Assembly: GCF_000597725.1 (NCBI RefSeq)
Contig: NZ_JFBL01000001.1
Location: 62,001-126,000, forward strand
DNA from: Sulfurospirillum arcachonense DSM 9755
GTDB taxonomy: Bacteria > Campylobacterota > Campylobacteria > Campylobacterales > Sulfurospirillaceae
DNA: 64,000 nucleotides
Reading direction: 5' to 3'
Both the position numbers and the translations under genes were made by a program. The notes beneath the pieces are model-generated. The model did not search any database, had not been told where the DNA came from, and saw only the letters and a program-made list of their open reading frames with translations. Each line of letters begins with the position of its first letter. Position 1 is the first letter of the stretch. Shown piece by piece: positions 1-46,629 of the stretch.

Positions 1-349
1 TTCCATACATATTTCCAAACTCATCTTCTTCATCAAAAAAGAGTTCAAACTTTTTAAGTTTTTGTATTAGATTTAGGCTTTTTTCATCGTACTTATTAAA
101 AATTAAATAGCAATTTATATCTACTTGTATATCAAACATAAACTCATCAATATAAAGTATCTCATCTTCAAACTCACAAGAAGGAAAAGAGATAAACATC
201 GTCATAGCTTTATTAGCGTGACTTCTTTTTAACTCTTTTTTTTGCTTACATGTAGAAAGAACTTCTACATTTTCAGCCATATAACCAATATCCATAAAGT
301 CATCAACTAAAACTTGTTCTTCGTCCTTATATGTGTATTTAGAGTCCAT
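1..349 (-). CDS. Partial protein of unknown function downstream of nifA (possibly thioredoxin-fold)
   Basis: An open frame starts with ATG at 349 and runs off the left edge, so only the first 116 residues are visible. The start overlaps the last bases of nifA, so the two are probably translated together. The middle of the protein (a run resembling TMFISFPSCEFEDE) looks faintly like the core of thiol-specific peroxiredoxins, where a beta strand leads into a cysteine loop, but I cannot confirm a peroxidatic cysteine in the usual place. The protein is acidic and has no signal peptide. I regard the redoxin idea as a weak guess; the reality of the gene is better supported, by the overlap and the intact frame. 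Confidence 0.6.
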   Translation of the reverse strand, partial: MDSKYTYKDEEQVLVDDFMDIGYMAENVEVLSTCKQKKELKRSHANKAMTMFISFPSCEFEDEILYIDEFMFDIQVDINCYLIFNKYDEKSLNLIQKLKKFELFFDEEDEFGNMYG

Positions 350-1868
350 ATTTTTTCACTTTATATCTTAACTGTCTTGGTGTAATTGCTAAAAGCTCCG
401 CTGCTTCAACTTGATTATCCTTGCACATCTTAAGAGCTGCAACTAATGCATCTTTTTCCAACTCTTCTAAAGTCTTATTCGCAAGTGTTATCTCTTTATA
501 CTCTTCTTCAATTTTTTCTGCTTTAAGAGCAGGTAACATCAAAAACATATCTTTAGCACTTATACCTTCTTCATGTCCCATAAGAACAATTCTTTCTAAG
601 GTATTTTCCAGCTCTCTTACATTTCCAGGCCATGGATAGCCCATTAGTTTATCCATAGCTTCATCTAAAATCTTTACATTTTTTTTGTGATTTTTCATAG
701 ATTTTTCTAAGAAAAAATTCACCAACAATCGTATGTCTTCTCCACGTTCCCTTAGTGGTGGCAAATCTATAGGAATAACATTGAGTCTATAATATAAATC
801 TTCTCTAAACTCTCCATCTTTTACCATCTGTTCTAAGTTTCTATTGGTTGCTGCGACTAGACGAACATTGACCTTTATGGTTTTACTTCCACCTACTCTT
901 TCAAACTCCCTCTCTTGTAAAACACGAAGAAGTTTCACTTGTGCAGAAGCTGAGATATCGCCTATCTCATCTAAGAAAAGTGTTCCACCATCTGCTAACT
1001 CAAAACGACCTTTTCTTGTCTCTTTCGCATCCGTAAAAGCACCCTTTTCATGCCCAAAAAGTTCACTTTCAAGTAAAGTATCTGTAATAGCAGCACAGTT
1101 TAGTTTTATAAAAGCACCCTCTTTTCTTTTACTTCTTTTATGTATCGAGGAAGCTACTAACTCTTTTCCTGTTCCTGTTTCTCCACGAACTAAAATTGTA
1201 ACATCACTAGGAGCAATTCTTTCTATGATGTTATAAACACCCTTCATTTTTTCACTCTCACCTATAATGTCACCAAAATTATGTGCTTTAGAGTCCCACT
1301 CCATTTTATAATACAGTTTTAAATCATTGAGTTTTTCTTTTTCACTCTCAACAATATTGTGTGAATGCATTGCTTGTGCAAAAAATGAGCTTACGATAGA
1401 TAAAATCCTTACAGTTTCATCAAAACCTATCTCTGTTGATTTTGTAAGATTTGTTGCAAGTACTCCTATGACTTCATTTTCTACTATCATAGGAACAGCT
1501 ACATAAGAGATCGTATCACTTGTTATATTGCCCGTTTTATTTAAAAACAAAACATCATTGTGAACATTTTCAATAACGATAGGTTGCATACTTTCGATAG
1601 CTTGTCCGGTTGCCCCTTCTCCTAAACGATAACTTGCAACATTTTTTTGATGTCGAGAGAGATTTATAGAAGCATATACTTTTAGTATATTGTCTTCTTC
1701 TAACTTGTAAATAGCACAATTTTCTAGATTTAAAGATTTTTTCAAAGCATGCAGAGACTTTTCTAATGACTTAACAATATCACCTCTAGAATCTGCAATA
1801 AAATTTGCTATATCAAATAAAACAGCAAGTTCTCTTTTTGTTAGACAGGCTTCACATAAATTATTCAT
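339..1868 (-). CDS. nifA: NifA, sigma-54-dependent activator of nif genes
   Basis: This 509-residue protein is the enhancer-binding activator of nitrogen-fixation promoters. A GAF-type sensory domain spans about 25-165. An AAA+ domain spans about 200-430 with Walker A at 229-236, Walker B near 294-301 and the sigma-54 contact loop at 276-281. A Fis-type helix-turn-helix occupies the last 45 residues. The contact loop reads GAFTDA instead of the common GAFTGA. The linker between the AAA+ domain and the helix-turn-helix lacks the cysteine cluster of oxygen-sensitive rhizobial NifA, although C5 and C8 form a CxxC pair at the N-terminus. The gene lies 126 bases behind nifT. An A+T-rich sequence there (around 1937-1950) could be its own vegetative promoter. 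The nif context makes NifA the best name among related activators. Confidence 0.9.
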   Translation of the reverse strand: MNNLCEACLTKRELAVLFDIANFIADSRGDIVKSLEKSLHALKKSLNLENCAIYKLEEDNILKVYASINLSRHQKNVASYRLGEGATGQAIESMQPIVIENVHNDVLFLNKTGNITSDTISYVAVPMIVENEVIGVLATNLTKSTEIGFDETVRILSIVSSFFAQAMHSHNIVESEKEKLNDLKLYYKMEWDSKAHNFGDIIGESEKMKGVYNIIERIAPSDVTILVRGETGTGKELVASSIHKRSKRKEGAFIKLNCAAITDTLLESELFGHEKGAFTDAKETRKGRFELADGGTLFLDEIGDISASAQVKLLRVLQEREFERVGGSKTIKVNVRLVAATNRNLEQMVKDGEFREDLYYRLNVIPIDLPPLRERGEDIRLLVNFFLEKSMKNHKKNVKILDEAMDKLMGYPWPGNVRELENTLERIVLMGHEEGISAKDMFLMLPALKAEKIEEEYKEITLANKTLEELEKDALVAALKMCKDNQVEAAELLAITPRQLRYKVKKYGL

Positions 1869-1994
1869 CGTAACTTCTTTTTTAATTAGTTTGTATTTAG
1901 ACTACCGTAGTACTCCACCCCTATGAAAACTACTAAGGTCTATAATATACTATATATATATTAAAAAATATACATTTTCGTGAATAATTTTTAA

Positions 1995-2204
1995 TCAATC
2001 AGCAAGTTTTTTGCACACTTCTTCTTTAGGAAGTTTTTTTGCATCTGGTTTTATCCACCATGTTTCGCCATTGCTAAGCTCTACTTCGCCACCCCATTTC
2101 TCTTCACTATCAAACTCTATAGTCTCTATAGTCTCTTCCATATCTTTTTTTGCTATATAAAAATATATCTCGCCACCATTTTCTCTTAACATTACTTTTG
2201 CCAT
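1995..2204 (-). CDS. nifT: NifT/FixU family protein
   Basis: This 69-residue protein has the hallmarks of NifT/FixU: it begins with a KVMxRxxG strand, continues with a short KKDxEE turn and has the WGGxVxLxNGxxW core. NifT is commonly found beside nitrogenase genes, but its role is not essential in the species tested and remains unclear. It sits nine bases behind the FAD protein gene and is probably the last member of the RpoN-driven operon that starts at 5061. No cysteine motif suggestive of a metal site is evident. Length and sequence match the family well. Confidence 0.85.
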   Translation of the reverse strand: MAKVMLRENGGEIYFYIAKKDMEETIETIEFDSEEKWGGEVELSNGETWWIKPDAKKLPKEEVCKKLAD

Positions 2205-2213
2205 TTTTTCCCT

Positions 2214-3860
2214 TTATGTTACGTTTGTAAAAGTTTTTTTAAATTTACTCATAAAATTGCTATCTTCATACCAAATTTTATATTGCGACCTTCTTATCTC
2301 ATTGGTCAGAATAGATTTTTTTAATTTTGGATTACTTACTGGGTAATCAACTCTCGAATGAGCTCCTCGACTCTCTTTTCTTTTTAAAGCACTCAGCACG
2401 ACAGCCTCACTAACTTCTAAAGCATTTTTCAACTCTAAGATTGAGACAAGTTCAACATTATTTCTTCTATCTTTATCTATACAGTGAAGGGTACTTGCTT
2501 CTCCTCGTAAATAACGCACATAATCATAAGCTTTTTCCAATCGCTTTTGATCCCTATAAATCCCAGCGTACTCAAACATAGTATTCCCTAGGTTTACTCT
2601 CATGGCATTGAAATTTTTTGTAGTTTCTCCTTGAAAGATATAATCTACAAGTTTTACATTTTGAACTACGATATTATAATCTATAGGCAAAAACTCTTTA
2701 TGTTGAGAAAACTTTACAGCTTCTTTTCCTGCAAGCTCACCAAAAACCACTCCTTCTAAAAGAGAGTTTCCTCCAAGTCTATTGGCCCCATGTACTCCAG
2801 TAGTAGAACACTCACCACAAACAAAAAGACCTTTAAGTCCCGTTTTACAAAGATTTGCATCAATCCCACCCATACTGTAGTGTGCAACTGGTTTTATAGG
2901 AAGTAACTCTTTACTTACATCAACTCCAGCTTGCATAAGAGCTGCTTTTTGCAAGGAAGGAAGTTTTGTCTCTATCTGTTTGAGTGGTAAGTGTCTAAGG
3001 TCTATAAAAACTTCTTGACCTGCAGCAATCTGTTTGGCAATAGCACAACTTACTATGTCTCTTCTTTCTAACTCATTGATAAATCTCTCACCATCACTAT
3101 TGATAAGATAACCACCCTCTCCACGAGCCGCTTCACTTACAAGATAACTGGTCTTTTTAAATCCAGTTGGATGAAACTGTACAAACTCCATATCTTTGAG
3201 GTTAAGCCCTGCTCGAAGTGCTATTGCGTGCATATCTCCTGTATAATCCCCAGCATTTGTACTATATCCTCTATAGATTCCTGCATATCCTCCACCAGCT
3301 AGAACAATAGACTTTGCAGGATAAACAACCACAGAAGAATCAAACCGCCTTAAAGCTACAACTCCACTTACTCTGCCATTGAGTTTTGTAAGGTTCATAA
3401 TGAAAGTATTTACTAAAAAAGTAACCCCTTCACTTTTTGCTTTTTTAATAAGTACTTGCATAATAGCTGAGCCTGTTTTGTCTTCTACATAACAAGTTCG
3501 TTTTATACTTCCTCCGCCAAAACTTCTTTGGGCTATCTTCTCATCTTCATCTTTATCAAACTCTACTCCATAAGATTCAAGCTTTTTTATAACCTTATTT
3601 GCACGATTACACATGTAAAATATAGCTTTTTTATCACCTAACCCATATGTTCCTTTTATAGTGTCCTTTACATGTTGGTCTATACCTACTTTATCTTTTG
3701 GGTCTAGTACAGCATTTATACCTCCACTAGCAAGTGCAGAGTTTGAACGAAAAAGATTTCCTTTGGTAATAACCGCTACTTTATTTGTTTTTGTTTTAGC
3801 TTCAATAGCTGCCATAAGACCTGAGATACCACCACCTACTACAATAACATCATATATCAT
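2214..3860 (-). CDS. FAD-dependent oxidoreductase of the L-aspartate oxidase/fumarate reductase family
   Basis: The 548-residue protein opens with a dinucleotide-binding GGGISGLMAA loop. It carries the family's flavin and substrate motifs: SGGINA near 65, FHPTG and ARGEGG near 230-245, AHYSMGGI near 330, and HGANRLGGNSLLEG near 365. This is the fold and active-site layout of NadB (L-aspartate oxidase, first step of NAD synthesis) and of fumarate reductase flavoproteins. Length favours NadB. It has no signal peptide or haem motif. It sits two bases from the aldo/keto reductase gene and nine from nifT in an RpoN-driven operon, which points to a role during nitrogen fixation, such as NAD supply or electron disposal; that role is inference. 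Confidence 0.75.
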   Translation of the reverse strand: MIYDVIVVGGGISGLMAAIEAKTKTNKVAVITKGNLFRSNSALASGGINAVLDPKDKVGIDQHVKDTIKGTYGLGDKKAIFYMCNRANKVIKKLESYGVEFDKDEDEKIAQRSFGGGSIKRTCYVEDKTGSAIMQVLIKKAKSEGVTFLVNTFIMNLTKLNGRVSGVVALRRFDSSVVVYPAKSIVLAGGGYAGIYRGYSTNAGDYTGDMHAIALRAGLNLKDMEFVQFHPTGFKKTSYLVSEAARGEGGYLINSDGERFINELERRDIVSCAIAKQIAAGQEVFIDLRHLPLKQIETKLPSLQKAALMQAGVDVSKELLPIKPVAHYSMGGIDANLCKTGLKGLFVCGECSTTGVHGANRLGGNSLLEGVVFGELAGKEAVKFSQHKEFLPIDYNIVVQNVKLVDYIFQGETTKNFNAMRVNLGNTMFEYAGIYRDQKRLEKAYDYVRYLRGEASTLHCIDKDRRNNVELVSILELKNALEVSEAVVLSALKRKESRGAHSRVDYPVSNPKLKKSILTNEIRRSQYKIWYEDSNFMSKFKKTFTNVT

Positions 3861-3862
3861 GA

Positions 3863-4969
3863 TTACAACCTATAGAGCAAATCATACTTTGCCCTTGAAA
3901 CTGATTTTACTTTAGAAATCTCAACATTTTGCTTTACATGTAAAGGTTTAATCGAACCAAAAAGAGAACTAATAATACCAGGTGTTGAGCGCACAAACTG
4001 AAGTGCGAGTTGTATGTCACTCTCCAGCGTCATACTCTCATCTAAGATAACTCCACTCTCAGGTGAAAATGACTTTTTAAAAAGATTCATTTGTAAAAGT
4101 GAAGATGAGCTAATAACCCCAATGCCTAATCTATGAGCAGCTTGAAGAAGCGTACAAGAAGCACCATCTACACTTTGAGTTTCTTGCGTGTATATATTTG
4201 TTTTTCCCATGTTAAACGGCGTTTGAATGTACTTAAATCTGTGATTGTCTCCACCCACTTTTTGAGCAATCTTCACGAGTTTTTCTAAGCTTATCAGCTC
4301 TGAGCTTTGTGAAGTAAAACCGTTCCAAACAGCAACCCCATAAAAAGAAAAAAGTCCTTCGTCTGCTAGTTTTTCAAATCTTTTAAATATATTTTCAATC
4401 TGTTTGTAAAACTTTTTTTCACCAAGCTTTAAAAACTGCATCTCTGGATTGTGTAAAAAGTAAATATCAAGAGCTTTAACACCAAGGTTATCCAAACTTC
4501 TTCTACAAGACCACTCCAAAAAATCAGGAGTCATGCAGTGCTGGTCTAACTCAATGTCCTCTTTTGAAGCTAAATTTTTATCAAGGATATTTTGTTCTAT
4601 CCACTCATATGGATTAGAAGGAAACGGAAAATCTAACTGGATAAACCCGCCTTTTGAGCAGACGACAAGCTCTTCTCTTTTGATCTCTTCATCACTCATC
4701 ATTTCATACAGTGCTATACCTATCTCTCTTTCACTTTGCCCATAACGATAGTTACTCGCAGTATCTATAAAGTTAATCCCACTTCTAATGGCTTCTTTTA
4801 CACTCTCTATATAGTGAAAAACATAGTTTTCTTCTTTGTAAGGCTCAGGATTAAAAGTACCAAGTCCAAGTTTTGAGAAAATCAAATCATTGTGTTTGAT
4901 GTAAAAGTCTTTATAGTGTGAAAACTTTTTGGCATAAGAGAGAGTCCCTTGCAACGATGCAATACTCAT
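3863..4969 (-). CDS. Aldo/keto reductase family protein, nif-linked
   Basis: The 368-residue protein shows the aldo/keto reductase barrel signature. The catalytic aspartate and tyrosine lie in FIDTASNYRYGQSE, the lysine in VCSKGG and the active-site histidine in FLHNPE. The C-terminal LLQ...FVRSTPGIISSLFGS segment resembles the NADP-binding end of the family. The N-terminus is about 30 residues longer than minimal members. The start codon overlaps the stop of the upstream 31-residue gene by four bases (ATGA), implying translational coupling, and the FAD protein follows two bases later. Its substrate cannot be read from sequence. Control by the RpoN-type promoter at 5098-5112 ties it to nitrogen fixation. 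Confidence 0.8.
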   Translation of the reverse strand: MSIASLQGTLSYAKKFSHYKDFYIKHNDLIFSKLGLGTFNPEPYKEENYVFHYIESVKEAIRSGINFIDTASNYRYGQSEREIGIALYEMMSDEEIKREELVVCSKGGFIQLDFPFPSNPYEWIEQNILDKNLASKEDIELDQHCMTPDFLEWSCRRSLDNLGVKALDIYFLHNPEMQFLKLGEKKFYKQIENIFKRFEKLADEGLFSFYGVAVWNGFTSQSSELISLEKLVKIAQKVGGDNHRFKYIQTPFNMGKTNIYTQETQSVDGASCTLLQAAHRLGIGVISSSSLLQMNLFKKSFSPESGVILDESMTLESDIQLALQFVRSTPGIISSLFGSIKPLHVKQNVEISKVKSVSRAKYDLLYRL

Positions 4970-5061
4970 CTTTTATCTTTTACTTCATATTTTTTAACTT
5001 GAATATAAATAACTGATACATAAAGTACCAAGAAACTTGCAATTGCAAAATATGTCTCCAT
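4966..5061 (-). CDS. Small single-pass membrane protein (31 residues), first gene of an RpoN-driven operon
   Basis: A short frame begins with ATG at 5061 and ends at 4966, overlapping the aldo/keto reductase start by four bases. The product has a short N-terminus, a hydrophobic stretch of about 17 residues (roughly 4-21) that could cross the membrane once, and a lysine-rich tail, as expected for an inside-anchored microprotein. The RpoN-type promoter lies 51 bases upstream, the same spacing as at nifH, which supports this start as the true beginning of the operon. I do not recognise a family. It may anchor or recruit the two redox enzymes encoded after it; that is speculation. Confidence 0.6.
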   Translation of the reverse strand: METYFAIASFLVLYVSVIYIQVKKYEVKDKR

Positions 5062-5097
5062 AATATAACCTTTTATTATCTTTACTAATGTTTTATA

Positions 5098-5112
5098 TAC
5101 ATGAAGTGTTCC
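5098..5112 (-). promoter_or_regulatory. RpoN (sigma-54) promoter of the microprotein/AKR/FAD/nifT operon
   Basis: Read on the minus strand the element is GGAACACTTCATGTA. It keeps the -24 GG, the AACACT block and the -12 TG of the RpoN promoters known in Campylobacter and Helicobacter. The GG is 51 bases from the ATG at 5061, which predicts a leader of roughly 25 bases. The same element occurs before nifH, nifE and nifX in this window. No convincing TGT-N10-ACA activator site was found upstream. Confidence 0.8.
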
Positions 5113-5163
5113 GTTGTTTTATTTATATAAATATACTTAATTCCTAATAATAAATGTATTTGT

Positions 5164-5169
5164 GTTATA
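5164..5169 (+). promoter_or_regulatory. -10 element of a vegetative promoter for the lipoprotein gene
   Basis: The hexamer TATAAT is preceded by TGT, an extended -10 arrangement typical of sigma-70 promoters in Campylobacterota. An AAGG ribosome-binding site near 5191 and a GTG start at 5207 follow at suitable distances. A clear -35 element is absent, as is usual in this group. Confidence 0.6.
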
Positions 5170-5206
5170 ATTCGCGCAATAAATAAAGTAAAGGTAGGTA
5201 AGTATC

Positions 5207-5683
5207 GTGAATTTAATAAAAATAGGCATATTTATTTGTGTAATGTTTTTTGTAGGTTGTGGTTCGAAGATGCACGTCCAGCAAAAATTTCATCAGGAAA
5301 ATAATCAAATATTTTCATATGAAATAAAAACTAATAATATAGTTCCTATAAAGGCTAAGTCAATCTTTGAAAATAGATTAAATGAAGAGCTTAAAAAGCT
5401 AAATAAACTCGCTAATGAAAATGTTCAGCCAAGCCATATTATTGATATTTCATTCTTAGATTACAATATGCGTAATGCAGGAGTGAGATTTGCTGTCGGT
5501 ATCTTTGCTGGTACAGATAGAATAGATACTCAAATTATTGTTAAAGATAAAGCTAGTGGTAAAATAGTTTCAAAGTTTATTGTTCAATCAAAAAACAATT
5601 CAGCTTGGGGTACTTCAGCAGGTTTAATTGAAGGACATGCAGATAAAATTGTTAAATATTTAACAGATAAGAATAATAACTAG
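5207..5683 (+). CDS. Predicted lipoprotein, DUF4410-like
   Basis: The 158-residue product has a hydrophobic signal peptide ending in a lipobox (FFVGCGSK), so it is probably lipidated at about C18 and held in a membrane. The mature part is a mixed alpha/beta domain. A strand-rich C-terminal half (DTQIIVKDKASGKIV and on) resembles DUF4410-type envelope proteins whose function is unknown. Translation starts at GTG, supported by AAGG about ten bases upstream. The gene stands alone on the plus strand between the nifT operon and mutY. Nothing links it to nitrogen fixation except position. Confidence 0.7.
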   Translation: MNLIKIGIFICVMFFVGCGSKMHVQQKFHQENNQIFSYEIKTNNIVPIKAKSIFENRLNEELKKLNKLANENVQPSHIIDISFLDYNMRNAGVRFAVGIFAGTDRIDTQIIVKDKASGKIVSKFIVQSKNNSAWGTSAGLIEGHADKIVKYLTDKNNN

Positions 5684-5719
5684 AAAAAGGATTTATAATC
5701 CATATTTTATAAACAAACA

Positions 5720-6649
5720 TTACCCAAGAAGCTTCAAAGCCTTCTTAGTCATAGAGGAGATTGGAGCTTCGTCCATCTCTTCTGCTTCTAGCCAGATACT
5801 ATTTTCATCGTAAGTTTTAGTTTTGTAGAGATTTACAGTTATGCGGTATTTTGTGTAGCTGTGTTTAAAACTTGCTATGAAGTTTTCTTCTAAAGGCTCC
5901 GTCTCAGGTAAAACTAGCAAACCTTTGTAAAGTTTTGTTTGGGATTTACTAAGCGCTATTTTGTTGTTTTGTATGCATACTCCAAGAAAAAGCTCTAGGT
6001 TTTCATACTGTGTTTTTTTCTTTTTTGTGTAGAGTTCTGGCTCATTTTTACCTTTACATGTAAAGCTTAAAGGACACTCTTTGCATTGTGGATTTGTGGG
6101 AGTACAGATAAGTGAGCCTAAGTCCATGAGTGCTAGATTGTGTTTGGTTGGCTCGTTTGGATTTAAAAACTTTTCAGCCATTTGCCATATCAACTTTTCA
6201 TCTAACAAAGCAAAGTAGCGTTTTAAAACTCTGGATATATTGGTATCGACTACGGGGACTTTTTGATGGTATCCAAAACTACATATGGCACTTGCAGTGT
6301 ATCTTCCTACTCCAAAGAGTGTTTGCAACTCTTTCATGCTTTTTGGTAACCCATCTTCTTTGCATAAGATGGCACTTTTGTGTAGGTTTCTTGCTCTACT
6401 GTAGTATCCTAGCCCACTCCAAGAAGCCAGTACATCATCAATCTTTGCACCTGCTAAAGCTTTAAGCGTGGGGTACTTTTTTAAAAACAGAGGATAAAAG
6501 TGCTCTTGAACTCGACTCACTTGAGTTTGTTGCAACATCACTTCACTTAGATAGATATGATATACATCTTTTGTATTACGCCATGGAAGCTCATGTCTAC
6601 CATAGTTTTCGTACCAATCTAAAAGTGCGATGTGAGATTTTGTTGTGAT
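5720..6649 (-). CDS. mutY: A/G-specific adenine glycosylase MutY (possible ATC start)
   Basis: MutY removes adenine mispaired with 8-oxoguanine. The protein shows the helix-hairpin-helix region (LFGVGRYTASAI), the catalytic aspartate in VVDTNISRV, the iron-sulfur ligands in the order C-x6-C-x2-C-x5-C and a NUDIX-like C-terminal domain. The first ATG is at 6541, but beginning there would remove the LPWR and SEVMLQQTQ segments, the latter holding the catalytic glutamate. The same frame continues upstream through a good MutY N-terminus to a stop with no ATG, GTG or TTG. The only plausible full-length start is ATC at 6649, preceded by AAGGA, giving 309 residues. Otherwise the start codon was lost or misread. 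A shorter, probably inactive form could start at 6541 or 6544. Confidence 0.85.
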   Translation of the reverse strand: MTTKSHIALLDWYENYGRHELPWRNTKDVYHIYLSEVMLQQTQVSRVQEHFYPLFLKKYPTLKALAGAKIDDVLASWSGLGYYSRARNLHKSAILCKEDGLPKSMKELQTLFGVGRYTASAICSFGYHQKVPVVDTNISRVLKRYFALLDEKLIWQMAEKFLNPNEPTKHNLALMDLGSLICTPTNPQCKECPLSFTCKGKNEPELYTKKKKTQYENLELFLGVCIQNNKIALSKSQTKLYKGLLVLPETEPLEENFIASFKHSYTKYRITVNLYKTKTYDENSIWLEAEEMDEAPISSMTKKALKLLG

Positions 6650-40779: not shown

Positions 40780-40808
40780 ATTATAGTTAGATATCTAACT
40801 AATGTCAA
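40780..40808 (-). promoter_or_regulatory. marR promoter with operator as spacer
   Basis: On the minus strand TTGACA (40808-40803) and TATAAT (40785-40780) are separated by exactly 17 bases. The 18-base palindrome TAGTTAGATATCTAACTA at 40784-40801 fills that spacer and runs into the -10 box. The ATG follows six bases after TATAAT. Confidence 0.85.
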
Positions 40809-40849: not shown

Positions 40850-41539
40850 TTAATATACTGCTTTTAATCGACTAAGTAAGTTATCTAAAATATTTTCATC
40901 TAATGACAACTTCATTTCCTTTGCTACTAACTCTTGTAATTCTATACACTTCTTAATGTAAATTATTTGTTCATCAATAGTAAATCTTTGCCAATTACTG
41001 TTTGATTTTTTCCCATTGTGATATTTAAGAATAAATTGGAAATTATCAGGATGATGTTTTCCTGCATCTTCTTTATTTAAAAGTGCCTTTGCATGGTCTA
41101 ATTCAAAGTCTAGGTTAAAAAACATTTTAAAAGATTTTTGGATATTTCTAAACTCATCCAAACGATAGAGTTCTTTGAGTGCGAATTTATCCTCTGCTTT
41201 TTTTTCTATCTCTCTTCGATTAATAGGTTCTAAATCTTCTTCTATATCTTGATTTTCTTTTTCTTTAAATTCATCTTCCGAGATGTATTTAACTTTTCGT
41301 GGTTTTTCAGAATCATCTATTTTAACAAATCCATCAAAACGCCCTTTAGAAAGTCTAGCACTAAGCCTAGCTCCAATTGCACGTAATCCTGTAGTTTCAT
41401 TTTGATGATTTTCAACTTGAGACTCCGCATTTCTCAACAACTCAGGATACTTTTCACTAACTCCAATTGCCCATTCTGAAACAGTGACATAATCATCAAA
41501 ACTTTTTAATGTTTCTAAATACTTTTCATGGATTTTCAT
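40850..41539 (-). CDS. HNH-type endonuclease domain protein, last gene of the restriction-like module
   Basis: The 229-residue protein has a C-terminal segment with the HNH pattern: LDHAKALLN, then HHPDNFQFILKYHNGKK, supplying the D-H, H-x-x-N and H-N-x-K residues. The N-terminal 100 residues are helical and basic and could bind DNA (the stretch GLRAIGARLSARLSKGRFDG may be a helix-turn-helix). A charged linker joins the halves. The start overlaps the preceding gene by four bases. It is probably a nuclease effector or partner of the module; this is inferred from motif and linkage. Confidence 0.7.
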   Translation of the reverse strand: MKIHEKYLETLKSFDDYVTVSEWAIGVSEKYPELLRNAESQVENHQNETTGLRAIGARLSARLSKGRFDGFVKIDDSEKPRKVKYISEDEFKEKENQDIEEDLEPINRREIEKKAEDKFALKELYRLDEFRNIQKSFKMFFNLDFELDHAKALLNKEDAGKHHPDNFQFILKYHNGKKSNSNWQRFTIDEQIIYIKKCIELQELVAKEMKLSLDENILDNLLSRLKAVY

Positions 41540-42978
41540 GTTAAGAACCTTTTATAATATTCAAGTAATTGAGCTTCTAACTGATCCCTTAAGTCCCCTG
41601 TGTCACCATAGTCATATCTATTTTGTTGATAACTTTGCAAATCAAAGCCAACATCAGCACTTCCACTATCACTTTTTTCTACAAAAAACATAATTTGATT
41701 TTCCATCCCTTTTGCCTTTGCTAATCCCATAGCAAAACCAACTTCTAAATATACATTTGCATTTTTATTTGTAATATCTGCTAATAATAATCCATTTCGT
41801 TGAATTTGATGTAAAATTTCATCCATTATCTGATAAGTATGTCCCTTTTGTAAGTTATCAATTCTAATACACTCTAATGGAAGTTTTGTTTCTTTTTTAA
41901 CCTTCTCTATTGTTTTTTCTATCGCTTTGAAATATTTATCTCTTTTGTAAAACTCCATAGCAACAAATATTTTAAAATCTCTAGGTACATAAGTTTCTTT
42001 GTATGTTTTATATAGATTTTCAAAATCCTCAAAATCCTCTAGTTTTGCTTCATTTTTTAACCAATCATAAAAATAGATAAATTCATTTTGCATTTTATCT
42101 ATATCATCAATAACCCTATCAAGGTAAAAAAGAATATTAATAAAGTTATATAACTTATCTTGATCTATGAACCTTTGTAATAAAGGGATTATTTCCTCCT
42201 CTCTTGATAGTGTTCTCATCCTATCAAAAAAGTTATCTAAAATACCCTCATTATCGTTTATAGGTATCTTCTTAGCTAAATAATCACATGATATACTAAT
42301 ATTATTTTTTAGTTTATTTATATCGATATAATAGTCTTTGAACATATCTGTAAACTTTACATTTGAGATTTTAAATACATACATCCACCAATCAATACTT
42401 TTAGCTTTTTCATCACTTAAATTTTCTGTTGCTTCATTTAAATAATCATGTGGTAAAAGTGGTTTTGCTTTTGAGTTGAGATAATAAAAAAGTGCCAACT
42501 CATCTTCGTAGTCACCTTCTCTATCTTGTGTTAAAACAAAAGTTACACCAATTTTAAGATTTGATAAATCACTATTTGGAGTTTCAGTAAGAAATTGTTT
42601 AATAGCTGATATTCTATGATTACCATCAATTATTTTTAAATTTTCAAATGCTTCTGTTTTTTTAATTTGTATTCTTAATATCTCATATCCAGTAATAGTT
42701 GATAAGTAAAAGTTTTCATTACTTAATAAAATTTTATTTCCAAAATCAATATCTTGATGCCTTAAAGAAACAATAATATCAGGTAAGTATCTATTGGAAC
42801 TATTTTTTAGATATTCAATTATTTTAGCTTCATGTTCTAAATCTCGCTCTCTTTGATATCCTTCATCGTATGTTTTAAATTGGGCAATTTCTTGTAGAGT
42901 CAAAAATGTTTTAGCAACAGTGTGATTAAAAACTCTATCTTTTACACCTATTGTATAAATTTGAAATTCAAGATTCAT
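41536..42978 (-). CDS. DGQHR/ParB-like protein fused to a nucleoside deoxyribosyltransferase/TIR-like domain
   Basis: The first about 300 of 480 residues resemble the DGQHR/DndB group: GYQRERDLEHEAKIIEYL, then LPDIIVSL and the IDGNHRISAIKQF signature, followed by YLNSKAKPLLPHDYLN. A separate C-terminal domain (about 335-480) starts FKIFVAMEFYKRDKYFKAIEKTIE and has LLADITNKNANVYLEVGFAMGLAK, the pattern of nucleoside 2-deoxyribosyltransferase- and TIR-like nucleotide-cleaving proteins. DGQHR proteins occur with DNA-modification defence systems. The gene overlaps the specificity subunit by 11 bases and the HNH gene by four. A defence role is inference. Confidence 0.75.
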   Translation of the reverse strand: MNLEFQIYTIGVKDRVFNHTVAKTFLTLQEIAQFKTYDEGYQRERDLEHEAKIIEYLKNSSNRYLPDIIVSLRHQDIDFGNKILLSNENFYLSTITGYEILRIQIKKTEAFENLKIIDGNHRISAIKQFLTETPNSDLSNLKIGVTFVLTQDREGDYEDELALFYYLNSKAKPLLPHDYLNEATENLSDEKAKSIDWWMYVFKISNVKFTDMFKDYYIDINKLKNNISISCDYLAKKIPINDNEGILDNFFDRMRTLSREEEIIPLLQRFIDQDKLYNFINILFYLDRVIDDIDKMQNEFIYFYDWLKNEAKLEDFEDFENLYKTYKETYVPRDFKIFVAMEFYKRDKYFKAIEKTIEKVKKETKLPLECIRIDNLQKGHTYQIMDEILHQIQRNGLLLADITNKNANVYLEVGFAMGLAKAKGMENQIMFFVEKSDSGSADVGFDLQSYQQNRYDYGDTGDLRDQLEAQLLEYYKRFLT

Positions 42979-44380
42979 ATTTATCTCCTAATATAATTTT
43001 TTCAACCTCTTCTTTTGCATCATCAAGTAAACTATTAGCTTCCTCTTGTAAGCTTTTAGCCTTTTCTCTACTTTGTTGTATCTCTTTTACTATTTCATCT
43101 TGAATATTTAGATCAGGTAAAGGTATTTTATAATTTTTAATCATATTAAAATTAAGATTATTTATATTTGTACCTCCTAATATTCTCATTAATAGTTGTC
43201 TAAACAAATTACTTTGTAAATAACAAAATAAAAAATATGGGTTTACATCTTTATTATAAACCCTTAAAACCATCATAAACGCACCAAAATAATAATCTAA
43301 ATCTTTTTCAATAAATGCCACTTTCCCGACATGTGATTTACTTCCACTGGCTGCACTCATTAAAATGTCATTTGTAACTAATTTTTGTTTTTCATCCATT
43401 TCAATAAAATTCTTTAAATATCTTATCTCTGTTAAATCTAATTCATTAGTTTTTAAATCAATATTATTTCCTCTTAAGATTCCTATTCCATCTTTAGATT
43501 CATCTTCTGATGAGTATGTTACTCCACGAATGCCTATACACAATTCTTTTAAACTAACTAAATCAAATTTTGTCTTATATAATTGCTCTTCAACCTCAAT
43601 ATAGTAAGGTTTATTATAAAACCCATCATACCTACTATTGAAGATATCATCAAATCCAACTTTAAAAGTTCTATTTTCTATATTATTCTCTGGTTCTTCT
43701 GGAAGTTCTATACCTAGTTTATCAAGTAAATAGTTATCTATGCTTGCAAGTATACTTTTAGCTTCTTTCTCTTTCTCTTTTTTAAGTTTATACGCATTAT
43801 CTATAATATCAATAATATTTTGTTGTATAATCTTATTTGGTATAGGTATAATAATATTTTCAATATCAAAAGTTTGTAACCTTGGTAATGTATTACCTGT
43901 CATCATATATTTTGTTTGATTTACTACACAATCTAAAAGTAGAAAAATAGATAAAAACTTATTAGATATTACACTTTCATATATAGTGTCCATAACAATA
44001 AATTCAGTTGTACATCCACCATCAAACTCTGCTAAATATACTTTATTTAAATATGGTCTTAATTTGCCAAAAAGAACATTACCTTTTGAAAATATAGAAC
44101 AATCTCCTTTTCCTTTTTCATTTTCACTTAGCAAATATAATCCCGTATTTGATTCAATATTAGCCATACCTATATATTTATTAACTTGTGATGCTGTTGA
44201 CTTTTTATTACTAATATTGAATAAATATTTTAGTTTATTAATTTCAAATGAATATTTTTCATCTAAAAATATATCCAAATACTTTAATCTTTCAGGATGA
44301 TAAAATATTGGTGACCATTGAGTACTTAGTTCGCCCCGATCTATTAAGAATATTTTATTCTTATCTAAATCGGGGCTCAA
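42968..44380 (-). CDS. hsdS: Type I-like restriction specificity subunit HsdS
   Basis: The 470-residue protein consists of two target-recognition domains. Each is followed by a conserved helical segment: IPIPNKIIQQNIIDIIDNAYKLKKEKE near 200 and IPLPDLNIQDEIVKEIQQSREKAKS near the end. The first domain is unusually short in its N-terminal part but both halves are intact. It should choose the DNA sequence that the methylase modifies. It starts inside the end of the methylase gene with a four-base overlap. Confidence 0.9.
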   Translation of the reverse strand: MSPDLDKNKIFLIDRGELSTQWSPIFYHPERLKYLDIFLDEKYSFEINKLKYLFNISNKKSTASQVNKYIGMANIESNTGLYLLSENEKGKGDCSIFSKGNVLFGKLRPYLNKVYLAEFDGGCTTEFIVMDTIYESVISNKFLSIFLLLDCVVNQTKYMMTGNTLPRLQTFDIENIIIPIPNKIIQQNIIDIIDNAYKLKKEKEKEAKSILASIDNYLLDKLGIELPEEPENNIENRTFKVGFDDIFNSRYDGFYNKPYYIEVEEQLYKTKFDLVSLKELCIGIRGVTYSSEDESKDGIGILRGNNIDLKTNELDLTEIRYLKNFIEMDEKQKLVTNDILMSAASGSKSHVGKVAFIEKDLDYYFGAFMMVLRVYNKDVNPYFLFCYLQSNLFRQLLMRILGGTNINNLNFNMIKNYKIPLPDLNIQDEIVKEIQQSREKAKSLQEEANSLLDDAKEEVEKIILGDKYES

Positions 44381-46629
44381 GTAAAATTTACATTTCCCTT
44401 TTTATATACTTCTTCATAAAAAGTTTTAAACTCATTGCCTACTGTAGATAATTCTGATTCTTCATATTTACAAGTATCATTACCTTTTGAGTCATATCCA
44501 ATTTCATCAATAATAGACATAAATATAGGATATTTATCAAACTTTGACATCTCAGTGTTTACAGCTTCATAAATTTTATCTCTTACAATTTCCTCTTTTA
44601 GTTTATATTCTTCTTTTAATTCGGCTACTTTTTCTTGATCTCCTTCAATTTCTTCTTCACTTTTTTCAATTTGATGTTTTAATACCTCAATTTGTTCATT
44701 GATCTCTTGAAGTAAGTTACTCTCTGGCTCTTCTCCTAAGTCATATTTTTTAACTCTTAAGTCCTGTAATTCATCATCATGTTTTTTTGACTCTTTTTTC
44801 AGTTCTTTTATTTTTTCATTATAAGGAGCTAGTTTTTCTTTTAGCTCTTTTCTTATAGATAGTATTTCAGGTTTGTGTTTATTTGTATGTCTTTCTCTTA
44901 TGCTATCCTGCTTATCTAAAAACTCTTTCTCTTCAATTTTACTCTTTTTCTTTAAAACTAATATAGATGACTTTACTCCTGCACCATAGTTACTAAAAGT
45001 ATGTTGAGGAAGAGAAAAAGAAGCCAATAGTTTAAATCTTTCTATTAGATAATTTCTTACATGCTGCATGGTTGAATTTGTAAGTATCCCATCAGGTAGT
45101 ACCATGGCTACTATTCCACTACTTGGTTTAAGAAGTTCATAATATCTTTCTAAAAAAAGTATTTCACTTTTTTGCTGTTTTAAATCTTTTCTATATTTAT
45201 TATCTATAATTTTATCTATAAAATCAACATAAGAATTTGCAAAATTATCAAAGGTACTAAAATATGTTTTATCATCTTTTATAATTGAGCCAAAAGGTGG
45301 ATTTGTAAATATATAATCAAAACTCTCTTTTTTAAACTCATTATTTTGTTTCTGAAAACTATCGAAAGTAGCAAGTCCATCACTTGTGATAACATTTGTA
45401 TGACCATCATCATGGATAATCATATTCATTTTAGCTGTACGACTTATACCTCCACTTATCTCTATACCATATAGTTTCTTTTCGGCAAAGTTATGCCAAA
45501 AGGCTTTTGCTCTTTCTTTATCTTTATCTGTCGGATTTTCTTTTTTCTTTAGAAATTCTTTTGATTTATTTTGCATTTGAGCTAATGACTGAAGTAAAAA
45601 GCCACCACTCCCACAACTAGGATCAATAACTCTATCATTTTCTTTTAAATCAAATAGATCAACTATAAATTTAACTACATTTGGTGGTGTAAAATATTGT
45701 CCAGCATCACCTTTAAAGAACTTTGCAAAAAAATCTTGAAATATTTTACCTTTAATATCAAGCTCTGTCTCATTTAAACTATAGGATTCAAGTTTCTCAA
45801 CTAAAAAAGTAATCTCATCTGCTTCTAATATCAAAGTATCATCAAAGACATTTGAATCTTTCTTTTTATGTTTATCATAAAGATTTTTTATTCTAATTTC
45901 TCTTTGTTTTTTTGTCTCATCTCTGTCTTTTTGAAACTCATAATACTCTGTATATTCCTCTGATAATTCATCAACCTTTTCATCCATAATTTTTGTAAAT
46001 ACTATTTTACTAAATTCATTAAAAGCTTCAGCAGGATTTCTTTTACCACCATTCCAAAGATAGTCATGTATTTCTTTTAATATACTGTTTAATTTCTCTG
46101 TATCAAGTGGCTTTATATCATTATCTTTTGAACCTCTTTTATATTTCCATTTTGGAACACTTCCACCAAAATCAGGGAAATCATCTATTTTTCTACTTTC
46201 ATTATCCCCAATATGCACTTTCCAAAATTCACTACCATTTGTAGCTATTGCATACTCAGCACCTGCTGCATGAGCATAACTTATAGCTTGGTCTTTTGCA
46301 GTTTTTAAATCTTTTTGTTTTTTATCTTTTACCTCTACAATCATATAGGCTTTATTTGTTTTTTTGGTATTTTTAACTTTATAGGCAATTATATCTGCAT
46401 ACTTGGTTTCTCTACCCATTGGCACTTTTACTTCTATTGCTAAACTATAAATAGGATATTGGTGTTCAATAACAAGCTTAGCAACCATGTAAGCTCGTAC
46501 TTTTTCCTCTGTCTCATTCCAAGATTTCGTTGAGCCTTGTTTTTGTCCTGTATGATAGGTTATCTTTGTTCTTTCATCGTTTAAACTAAATAGCTTTTTA
46601 TCAAAACCTTGTTGTATTAAATCATCCAT
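44377..46629 (-). CDS. hsdM: N6-adenine DNA methylase with an N-terminal restriction-endonuclease-like domain
   Basis: The 750-residue protein joins an N-terminal HsdR_N-like nuclease fold (about 25-150: the YADIIAY aspartate and IVEVKDKK, a PD-ExK pattern, then AIATNGSEFWKVH) to an N6 methylase (about 275-580: motif I DPSCGSGGFLLQSL and catalytic TNPPFGS). A long charged coiled coil (about 585-695) follows. There is no separate HsdR or helicase gene nearby. With the separate HsdS, this resembles BcgI-type enzymes in which one chain both cuts and methylates. Whether the nuclease domain cuts DNA is untested. An extended -10 (TGCTATAAT, near 46684-46692) lies upstream. Confidence 0.88.
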   Translation of the reverse strand: MDDLIQQGFDKKLFSLNDERTKITYHTGQKQGSTKSWNETEEKVRAYMVAKLVIEHQYPIYSLAIEVKVPMGRETKYADIIAYKVKNTKKTNKAYMIVEVKDKKQKDLKTAKDQAISYAHAAGAEYAIATNGSEFWKVHIGDNESRKIDDFPDFGGSVPKWKYKRGSKDNDIKPLDTEKLNSILKEIHDYLWNGGKRNPAEAFNEFSKIVFTKIMDEKVDELSEEYTEYYEFQKDRDETKKQREIRIKNLYDKHKKKDSNVFDDTLILEADEITFLVEKLESYSLNETELDIKGKIFQDFFAKFFKGDAGQYFTPPNVVKFIVDLFDLKENDRVIDPSCGSGGFLLQSLAQMQNKSKEFLKKKENPTDKDKERAKAFWHNFAEKKLYGIEISGGISRTAKMNMIIHDDGHTNVITSDGLATFDSFQKQNNEFKKESFDYIFTNPPFGSIIKDDKTYFSTFDNFANSYVDFIDKIIDNKYRKDLKQQKSEILFLERYYELLKPSSGIVAMVLPDGILTNSTMQHVRNYLIERFKLLASFSLPQHTFSNYGAGVKSSILVLKKKSKIEEKEFLDKQDSIRERHTNKHKPEILSIRKELKEKLAPYNEKIKELKKESKKHDDELQDLRVKKYDLGEEPESNLLQEINEQIEVLKHQIEKSEEEIEGDQEKVAELKEEYKLKEEIVRDKIYEAVNTEMSKFDKYPIFMSIIDEIGYDSKGNDTCKYEESELSTVGNEFKTFYEEVYKKGNVNFT

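Follow-up and report, generated by a model that had tools for sequence, protein, structure and literature searches.

A BcgI/BsaXI-like restriction-modification enzyme linked to a putative sensor-effector protein in Sulfurospirillum arcachonense and other bacteria

Restriction-modification (R-M) enzymes are usually viewed as acting on DNA alone. A block of four overlapping genes in Sulfurospirillum arcachonense DSM 9755 raises the question of whether such an enzyme may be part of a larger defense system that also carries a sensor and a nucleotide-cleaving effector. We analyzed this block and its relatives in other bacteria, and asked which of the four genes belong together and what the third could do.

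Results

Layout of the four-gene block

The block lies in the window, by which we mean the whole stretch of 64,000 nucleotides that was analyzed (contig NZ_JFBL01000001.1, positions 62,001 to 126,000). Gene 1 is referred to below as MT, gene 2 as S, and gene 3 as DN. The features are the following:

44377..46629, minus strand: gene 1 (MT), 750 aa, predicted fusion of a PD-(D/E)xK nuclease and an N6-adenine methylase
46174..46512, minus strand: HSDR_N_2 nuclease domain of gene 1, aa 40-152 (ADI...EVK), Pfam PF13588, E 1.6e-19
44782..45750, minus strand: N6_Mtase domain of gene 1, aa 294-616 (DPSCGSGGF, NPPF), Pfam PF02384, E 3.3e-35
42968..44380, minus strand: gene 2 (S), 470 aa, TTG start, predicted specificity subunit
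41536..42978, minus strand: gene 3 (DN), 480 aa, DGQHR domain and NDT/TIR-like domain
42418..42897, minus strand: DGQHR (ParB/sulfiredoxin-like) domain of gene 3, aa 28-187, DndB PF14072
41539..41985, minus strand: nucleotide N-glycosidase/TIR-like domain of gene 3, aa 332-480, from Foldseek and invariant residues
40850..41539, minus strand: gene 4, 229 aa, accessory HNH-motif protein
40780..40808, minus strand: perfect sigma-70-like promoter match (TTGACA-17-TATAAT), just past gene 4

By their ORF coordinates, genes 1 and 2 overlap by 4 bases, genes 2 and 3 by 11, and genes 3 and 4 by 4, exactly as given in a preliminary description of the block. Its statement that HsdR and helicase genes are lacking also held, as none was found within the four genes in the ORF list or with Pfam. 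The four-gene unit probably ends at gene 4, because a perfect promoter match stands after it; the MarR gene past this match probably starts a new transcription unit. Comparison with possible empty sites, anchored on the MarR and sensor genes that flank the block, was uninformative, these flanks not being kept in the relatives.

Genes 1 and 2 resemble a type IIB R-M enzyme

Pfam detected HSDR_N_2 and N6_Mtase in gene 1, and Methylase_S in gene 2 (E 4.7e-25) in two stretches that correspond to two target-recognition stretches. These matches bear out the earlier view of a PD-ExK-like domain joined to an adenine methylase and followed by a type I-like specificity subunit. A gene 1 profile of 25 relatives matched RM.BsaXI in the PDB with an E value of 1.3e-70, over nearly the whole length (profile positions 11-676 against chain positions 15-761) and with the nuclease domain included. 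When gene 1 was used as a single sequence against the PDB, the match to RM.BsaXI was limited to the methylase part. The nuclease residues E41 (aligned), D79, E99, and K101 were found in 28/28 relatives, and the methylase motifs NPPF (N443) and CGSGG are kept in 26/28.

Judged by architecture and homology, genes 1 and 2 are a predicted BcgI/BsaXI-like type IIB R-M enzyme. As in the BcgI-like systems, gene 1 fuses a PD-(D/E)xK nuclease to an N6-methylase, S is separate and has two target-recognition domains, and the block has no ATP-dependent translocase subunit. BsaXI is described as an RM + S architecture (PMC9159934). Unlike BsaXI and BcgI, the window adds a third gene, DN, which is linked to the enzyme across phyla and of which the consulted passages of the BsaXI paper make no mention.

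Two other assignments were rejected. A type I system would have an HsdR motor subunit, which is absent from the window block and was seen in the relatives only at L074. The methylase and specificity subunits are homologous to MAD2 (E 1.8e-92) and MAD5 (E 2.9e-24) of MADS, the methylation-associated defense system, in NCBIfam, but their scores fall far below the equivalog cut-offs (310.7 against 720 bits and 85.7 against 400 bits, respectively), and genes 3 and 4 are without a match among the MADS models of NCBIfam. The ORFs adjoining the block were read only by eye for the remaining mad genes.

Gene 3 combines a DGQHR domain with a nucleotide-cleaving-type domain

Gene 3 had been read in the preliminary description as a DGQHR domain paired with a domain of nucleotide-cleaving type, and both halves of this reading found support: the N-terminal domain matches DndB/DGQHR (PF14072) at 41.6 bits, above the gathering cut-off of 29.1, and the C-terminal domain has an NDT/TIR-type fold. 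With the NCBIfam DGQHR domain model, DN scored 48.5 bits, under the cut-off of 58.85. The motifs QR42-43, DGNHR118-122, and FxxxN164-168 correspond to QR, DGxHR, and FxxxN, described for DGQHR and GmrS domains (PMC4619093). An AlphaFold2 model of DN made with 30 sequences (pLDDT 85.6) matched the structures of DndB, GmrSD_N, and ParB-like viral proteins, and also those of NDT and hydroxymethyl-CMP hydrolase proteins. A single-sequence search of the PDB with DN gave chance matches only, and no model in PADLOC (2023) or NCBIfam (June 2026) matched DN as a whole.

DN carries the domain and the three motifs of DndB and DpdB, which belong to the DNA sulfur (phosphorothioation) and 7-deazaguanine modification systems Dnd and Dpd, but it has other partners and an extra domain of nucleotide-glycosidase type. 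Assignment to Dpd was rejected, as DN reached 23.7 of the 300 bits set for the DpdB equivalog in NCBIfam. Dnd membership was considered and not accepted; no other Dnd or Dpd genes were recognized in the block, nor were DndC, DndD, or DndE partners recognized by eye among the adjoining ORFs. The window resembles GmrSD in that a ParB/Srx-fold domain, with structural similarity to GmrSD_N, is followed by an HNH-type protein. GmrSD was nevertheless rejected, since genes 3 and 4 match neither GmrSD_N nor GmrSD_C in Pfam; a single DN member of 30 matched GmrSD_N (E 0.0023). Nor is DN a replacement of GmrSD, because whole GmrSD genes adjoin DN at other loci.

The best PDB matches of the C-terminal domain in Foldseek were DNPH1, the CMP N-glycosidases MilB and BcmB, NDT, and the TIR domain of SPARTA (E about 2e-3 to 1e-2, probability 1.0). 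Pfam NDT was matched by 11/30 DN members (best E 2.3e-6), with the window DN under the Pfam cut-off, and CAP12-TIR (Pfam) by 3/30. The PADLOC TIR effector model was matched by 27/30. Six members matched a CARF-containing PADLOC model, and DN may for this reason have a sensor role. Residues A400, D401, N408, V409, E412, and G414 are invariant (33/33), E412 being the catalytic-type glutamate in NVxxExG. NDT-type active sites have a second acid that DN keeps less strictly; a candidate for it, E387, is present in 19/33. Nucleotide cleavage by DN is plausible from the fold and the invariant residues. This fold and the catalytic-type glutamate are shared with DNPH1, NDT, and the TIR domains of CBASS, Thoeris, and SPARTA, whereas the fusion to a DGQHR domain and the tie to an R-M enzyme set DN apart from them.

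DN also has a Phe where the Tyr of NDT and DNPH1 stands. This residue, F338, assigned by profile alignment to the strand-1 Tyr of NDT (KIYIAG in 2a0k), is Phe in 31/33 members; Tyr is found only in two single-chain fusions (L015 and L017, see below). NADase TIRs have Phe or Ala at this position, and the Tyr of NDT and DNPH1 is linked to 2'-deoxy specificity (PMC11204291). Because Phe replaces the deoxy-linked Tyr in the sequence alignment, there is a hint that the substrate of DN is TIR-like (NAD-type) rather than a deoxynucleotide.

The C-terminal part of DN is exchanged between closely related loci

With L035 set aside, the MT proteins of the Firmicutes loci share 73-89% identity; for the N-terminal part of DN, the identity is mostly 50-82%. 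The last ~150 residues of DN come in two versions, with 48-80% identity within and 15-24% between versions. This part is replaced between loci with 80-89% identity in gene 1; L031 and L036, for example, share 89% identity in MT, 61% in the N-terminal part of DN, and 20% in its C-terminal part. The glutamate motif AD...NV..E.G is retained in both versions. Since the C-terminal part is swapped and the motif kept, DN would correspond to a constant sensor with an effector that can be exchanged; this swapping is the strongest sequence evidence for the predicted effector role.

The MT-S-DN order recurs across phyla

When 84,980 genomes were scanned with gene 3 as the sole seed, 67 loci were returned. 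Apart from the window, about 25 of them have the MT-S-DN order; these belong to Campylobacterota, Alpha- and Gammaproteobacteria, and Firmicutes. S lies nearby upstream at every locus with a full-length DN and enough flank, and MT does so at nearly all of them. S and DN usually overlap by 4 bases in the other loci; one or two additional genes separate them in five Firmicutes loci. The distances of MT and DN are correlated (r 0.90; 0/2000 permutations), which shared descent could also give. The observation is more than chance: across 28-33 relatives, genes 1 and 3 keep their catalytic motifs with little or no variation, and the order recurs across phyla.

The preliminary description had taken all four genes as one set, whose order was to be sought in other genomes and whose last two genes were expected to stay linked in relatives. 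It was largely right: the order of genes 1, 2, and 3 recurs, and the homology to RM.BsaXI and the tight linkage of gene 3 to genes 1 and 2 give good support to its proposal of a BcgI-like enzyme with added effectors. Its suggestion that foreign or damaged DNA triggers nucleotide cleavage is a conjecture. Gene 4 is not part of the recurring order; it is unlinked from gene 3 in the relatives and optional.

DN is not exclusive to BcgI-like enzymes, as indicated by two loci. At L074, it follows a canonical HsdM-RhuM-S-S-HsdR locus (RhuM identified by eye), and at L077, a contig from a viral collection, it occurs with an S-containing protein and an RdRP-family protein, with no methylase recognized. 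This last protein, encoded upstream of the S-DN-Mrr set on the IMG/VR contig (L077:1691-4741), has 1016 aa and matches PF05183 (E 4.8e-10). Conversely, MT-S pairs without DN exist (L087 and L101). Directly after the related MT-S pair of L101 lies a different, unrecognized third gene of 361 aa (5294-6379, minus strand), which suggests that other types of third subunit may exist.

DN is rare but widespread. It was found in 5/298 sampled genomes of the class; in two other classes (391 and 385 genomes), a full-length DN was present in the seed genome only. None was detected in phage records, and on plasmids there was only a remnant in Leisingera. In the latter (L002:8909-11152, annotated as 'N-6 DNA methylase'), the first part of MT is joined to the last part of DN, probably as the remnant of a deletion.

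Other observations concern individual loci. Frame breaks interrupt DN in two members of the Helicobacter group (L016:7968-9439 and L005:1468-2897), in which MT and S are open; phase variation of DN was considered, and no homopolymer tract was seen at the two frame breaks inspected. In an Aliarcobacter MAG (L010:2143-10568), urease-like genes recognized by eye flank MT-S-DN, as if it had been inserted into a urease cluster. At one Firmicutes locus, a gene that shares 4 bases with MT (L036:1354-3354) encodes a protein of 666 aa, which has a GHKL-type ATPase domain and weakly matches HSDR_N_2. An ORF resembling an OXA-type beta-lactamase by eye directly follows DN in Helicobacter sp. MIT 11-5569 (L012:9634-10239).

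Single-chain proteins of ~1,200 aa at two loci (L015:5922-9485 and L017:5880-9500) contain nuclease, methylase-like, S, DGQHR, and NDT domains. Their methylase motifs are destroyed (CGSGG to GFGQL and NPPF to TPPL), and their nuclease residues persist. Both sit in islands with TIR, ThsB-type TIR, TPR-S, and patatin genes.

Gene 4 occupies a variable slot

Gene 4 had no match in Pfam, PADLOC, NCBIfam, or the PDB (the last by profile search), and only weak HNH/endonuclease VII matches in PHROG (E 0.03-0.09). An AlphaFold2 model made with its relatives had a pLDDT of 45. Residues D148-H149, N166, H174-N175, and K177 are invariant in these relatives; the HNH residues noted earlier are thus present and conserved, which holds as a statement about a motif, and on these residues gene 4 is a putative nuclease. 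Its relatives (52-67% identical) sit with other R-M systems and were not seen beside gene 3 elsewhere. They follow DpnII and GmrSD at L086, MT-S lacking DN at L087, and an exonuclease III-like gene at L088; the one at L089 belongs to a type III R-M/AAA island.

Directly past DN, about half of the loci have a gene of nuclease type. This slot is filled by Mrr (L020, L054, and L077), GmrSD (L021, L022, and L028), McrB-like AAA (L019 and L024), PLD-helicase (L032), T5orf172 (L036), HEPN (L039), or Bro-N (L027), with GIY-YIG also among the gene types. Those at L022, L024, and L028 were assigned by comparison with a scanned relative equal in length and alike at the start. A fourth nuclease is missing from several loci (L010, L018, L025, and L040). 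Gene 4 is therefore an accessory, interchangeable R-M-linked gene outside the conserved core.

Discussion

We propose that genes 1-3 form one defense system, in which an R-M enzyme is combined with a sensor/N-glycosidase effector, DN, that stops the infected cell; we put the probability of this reading at roughly 0.55. As suggested by full-length homology and intact residues, MT and S would methylate a two-part site in host DNA and cut DNA without the mark. The DGQHR domain of DN, with its ParB/sulfiredoxin fold, could be the switch, sensing NTP or DNA, and the C-terminal domain would break the N-glycosidic bond of a nucleotide, NAD or a ribonucleotide being likelier than a deoxynucleotide. 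The effector would then halt an infected cell once the enzyme begins to cut or fails to do so, and gene 4 would be an interchangeable add-on nuclease. Both homology and linkage are strong, and from them we infer that the linked DN arm probably has an abortive, nucleotide-cleaving role. More tentatively, and at less than even odds, the R-M enzyme may have its own suicide arm: the type IIB complex would find its site by means of S, unmarked or blocked DNA would act through the DGQHR switch, and the exchangeable TIR/DNPH1-like domain would destroy NAD or nucleotides. If this were true, the single chains with dead methylases in the TIR/TPR-S islands would be pure DNA sensors derived from R-M enzymes.

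DN could instead be a DndB-like regulator that tunes the transcription or activity of the R-M enzyme, with the NDT/TIR-like domain as a nucleotide sensor. In favor of this reading, PMC10853773 discusses DndB as a negative regulator that depends on ATP, a CARF-containing model is matched by six DN members, and DN, encoded directly after S, could bind it. We nevertheless consider this unlikely: the Glu, AD, and N residues of the enzymatic site are invariant in 33/33, and wholesale exchange of the C-terminal domain on near-identical systems resembles the evolution of effectors, not of sensors. It is still less probable that DN acts on DNA, removing or exchanging bases at targets to which S guides it, so that gene 1 or the fourth-slot nuclease cuts the damaged site. 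DGQHR proteins do occur in DNA modification systems (DndB and DpdB, both of whose models DN matches), a DNA-directed role has been proposed for NDT domains (PMC3710099), and the fourth slot often holds a nuclease of modification-dependent type, such as Mrr or GmrSD. However, the nearest folds act on free mononucleotides or NAD, the Tyr tied to deoxy substrates is replaced by Phe, and no TGT or DpdC-type partner was recognized at the loci examined.

Two further explanations were considered. Were the PD-ExK domain not to cut, MT-S would only methylate, and DN with the fourth-slot nuclease would restrict by sensing modification. The frequency of nuclease-type genes after DN and the GmrSD-like pairing of DGQHR and HNH would fit such a scheme, which we find quite improbable given that the PD-ExK residues are invariant in 28/28, even in both fusions with dead methylases, and that several loci lack a fourth nuclease. 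An ordinary R-M system with unrelated hitchhiker genes describes gene 4 well, given the varied neighbors of its relatives at L086-L089, and the occurrence of MT-S without DN (L087 and L101) points the same way. As to gene 3, the order kept across phyla, the 4-base overlaps, and the fusions already disfavor it, leaving it with very little likelihood.

No description of the MT-S-DN core was found in the literature, with preprints and most subscription papers outside the reach of the search; it is provisionally undescribed. Variable backup effectors as a general idea appear in papers on BREX and Dnd (PMC12839542 and PMC10853773). What appears to be new is that a predicted type IIB R-M enzyme is linked to a third subunit of sensor-effector type and, optionally, to a nuclease.

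If the proposed defense system is confirmed, a site-specific R-M enzyme linked to a sensor and an exchangeable nucleotide-cleaving domain would join restriction-modification to TIR-type abortive immunity. The trigger of the suicide arm would become testable with phages differing in the number of target sites, and a tractable partner would become available for the DGQHR domain, which has an unsettled role in Dnd and Dpd.
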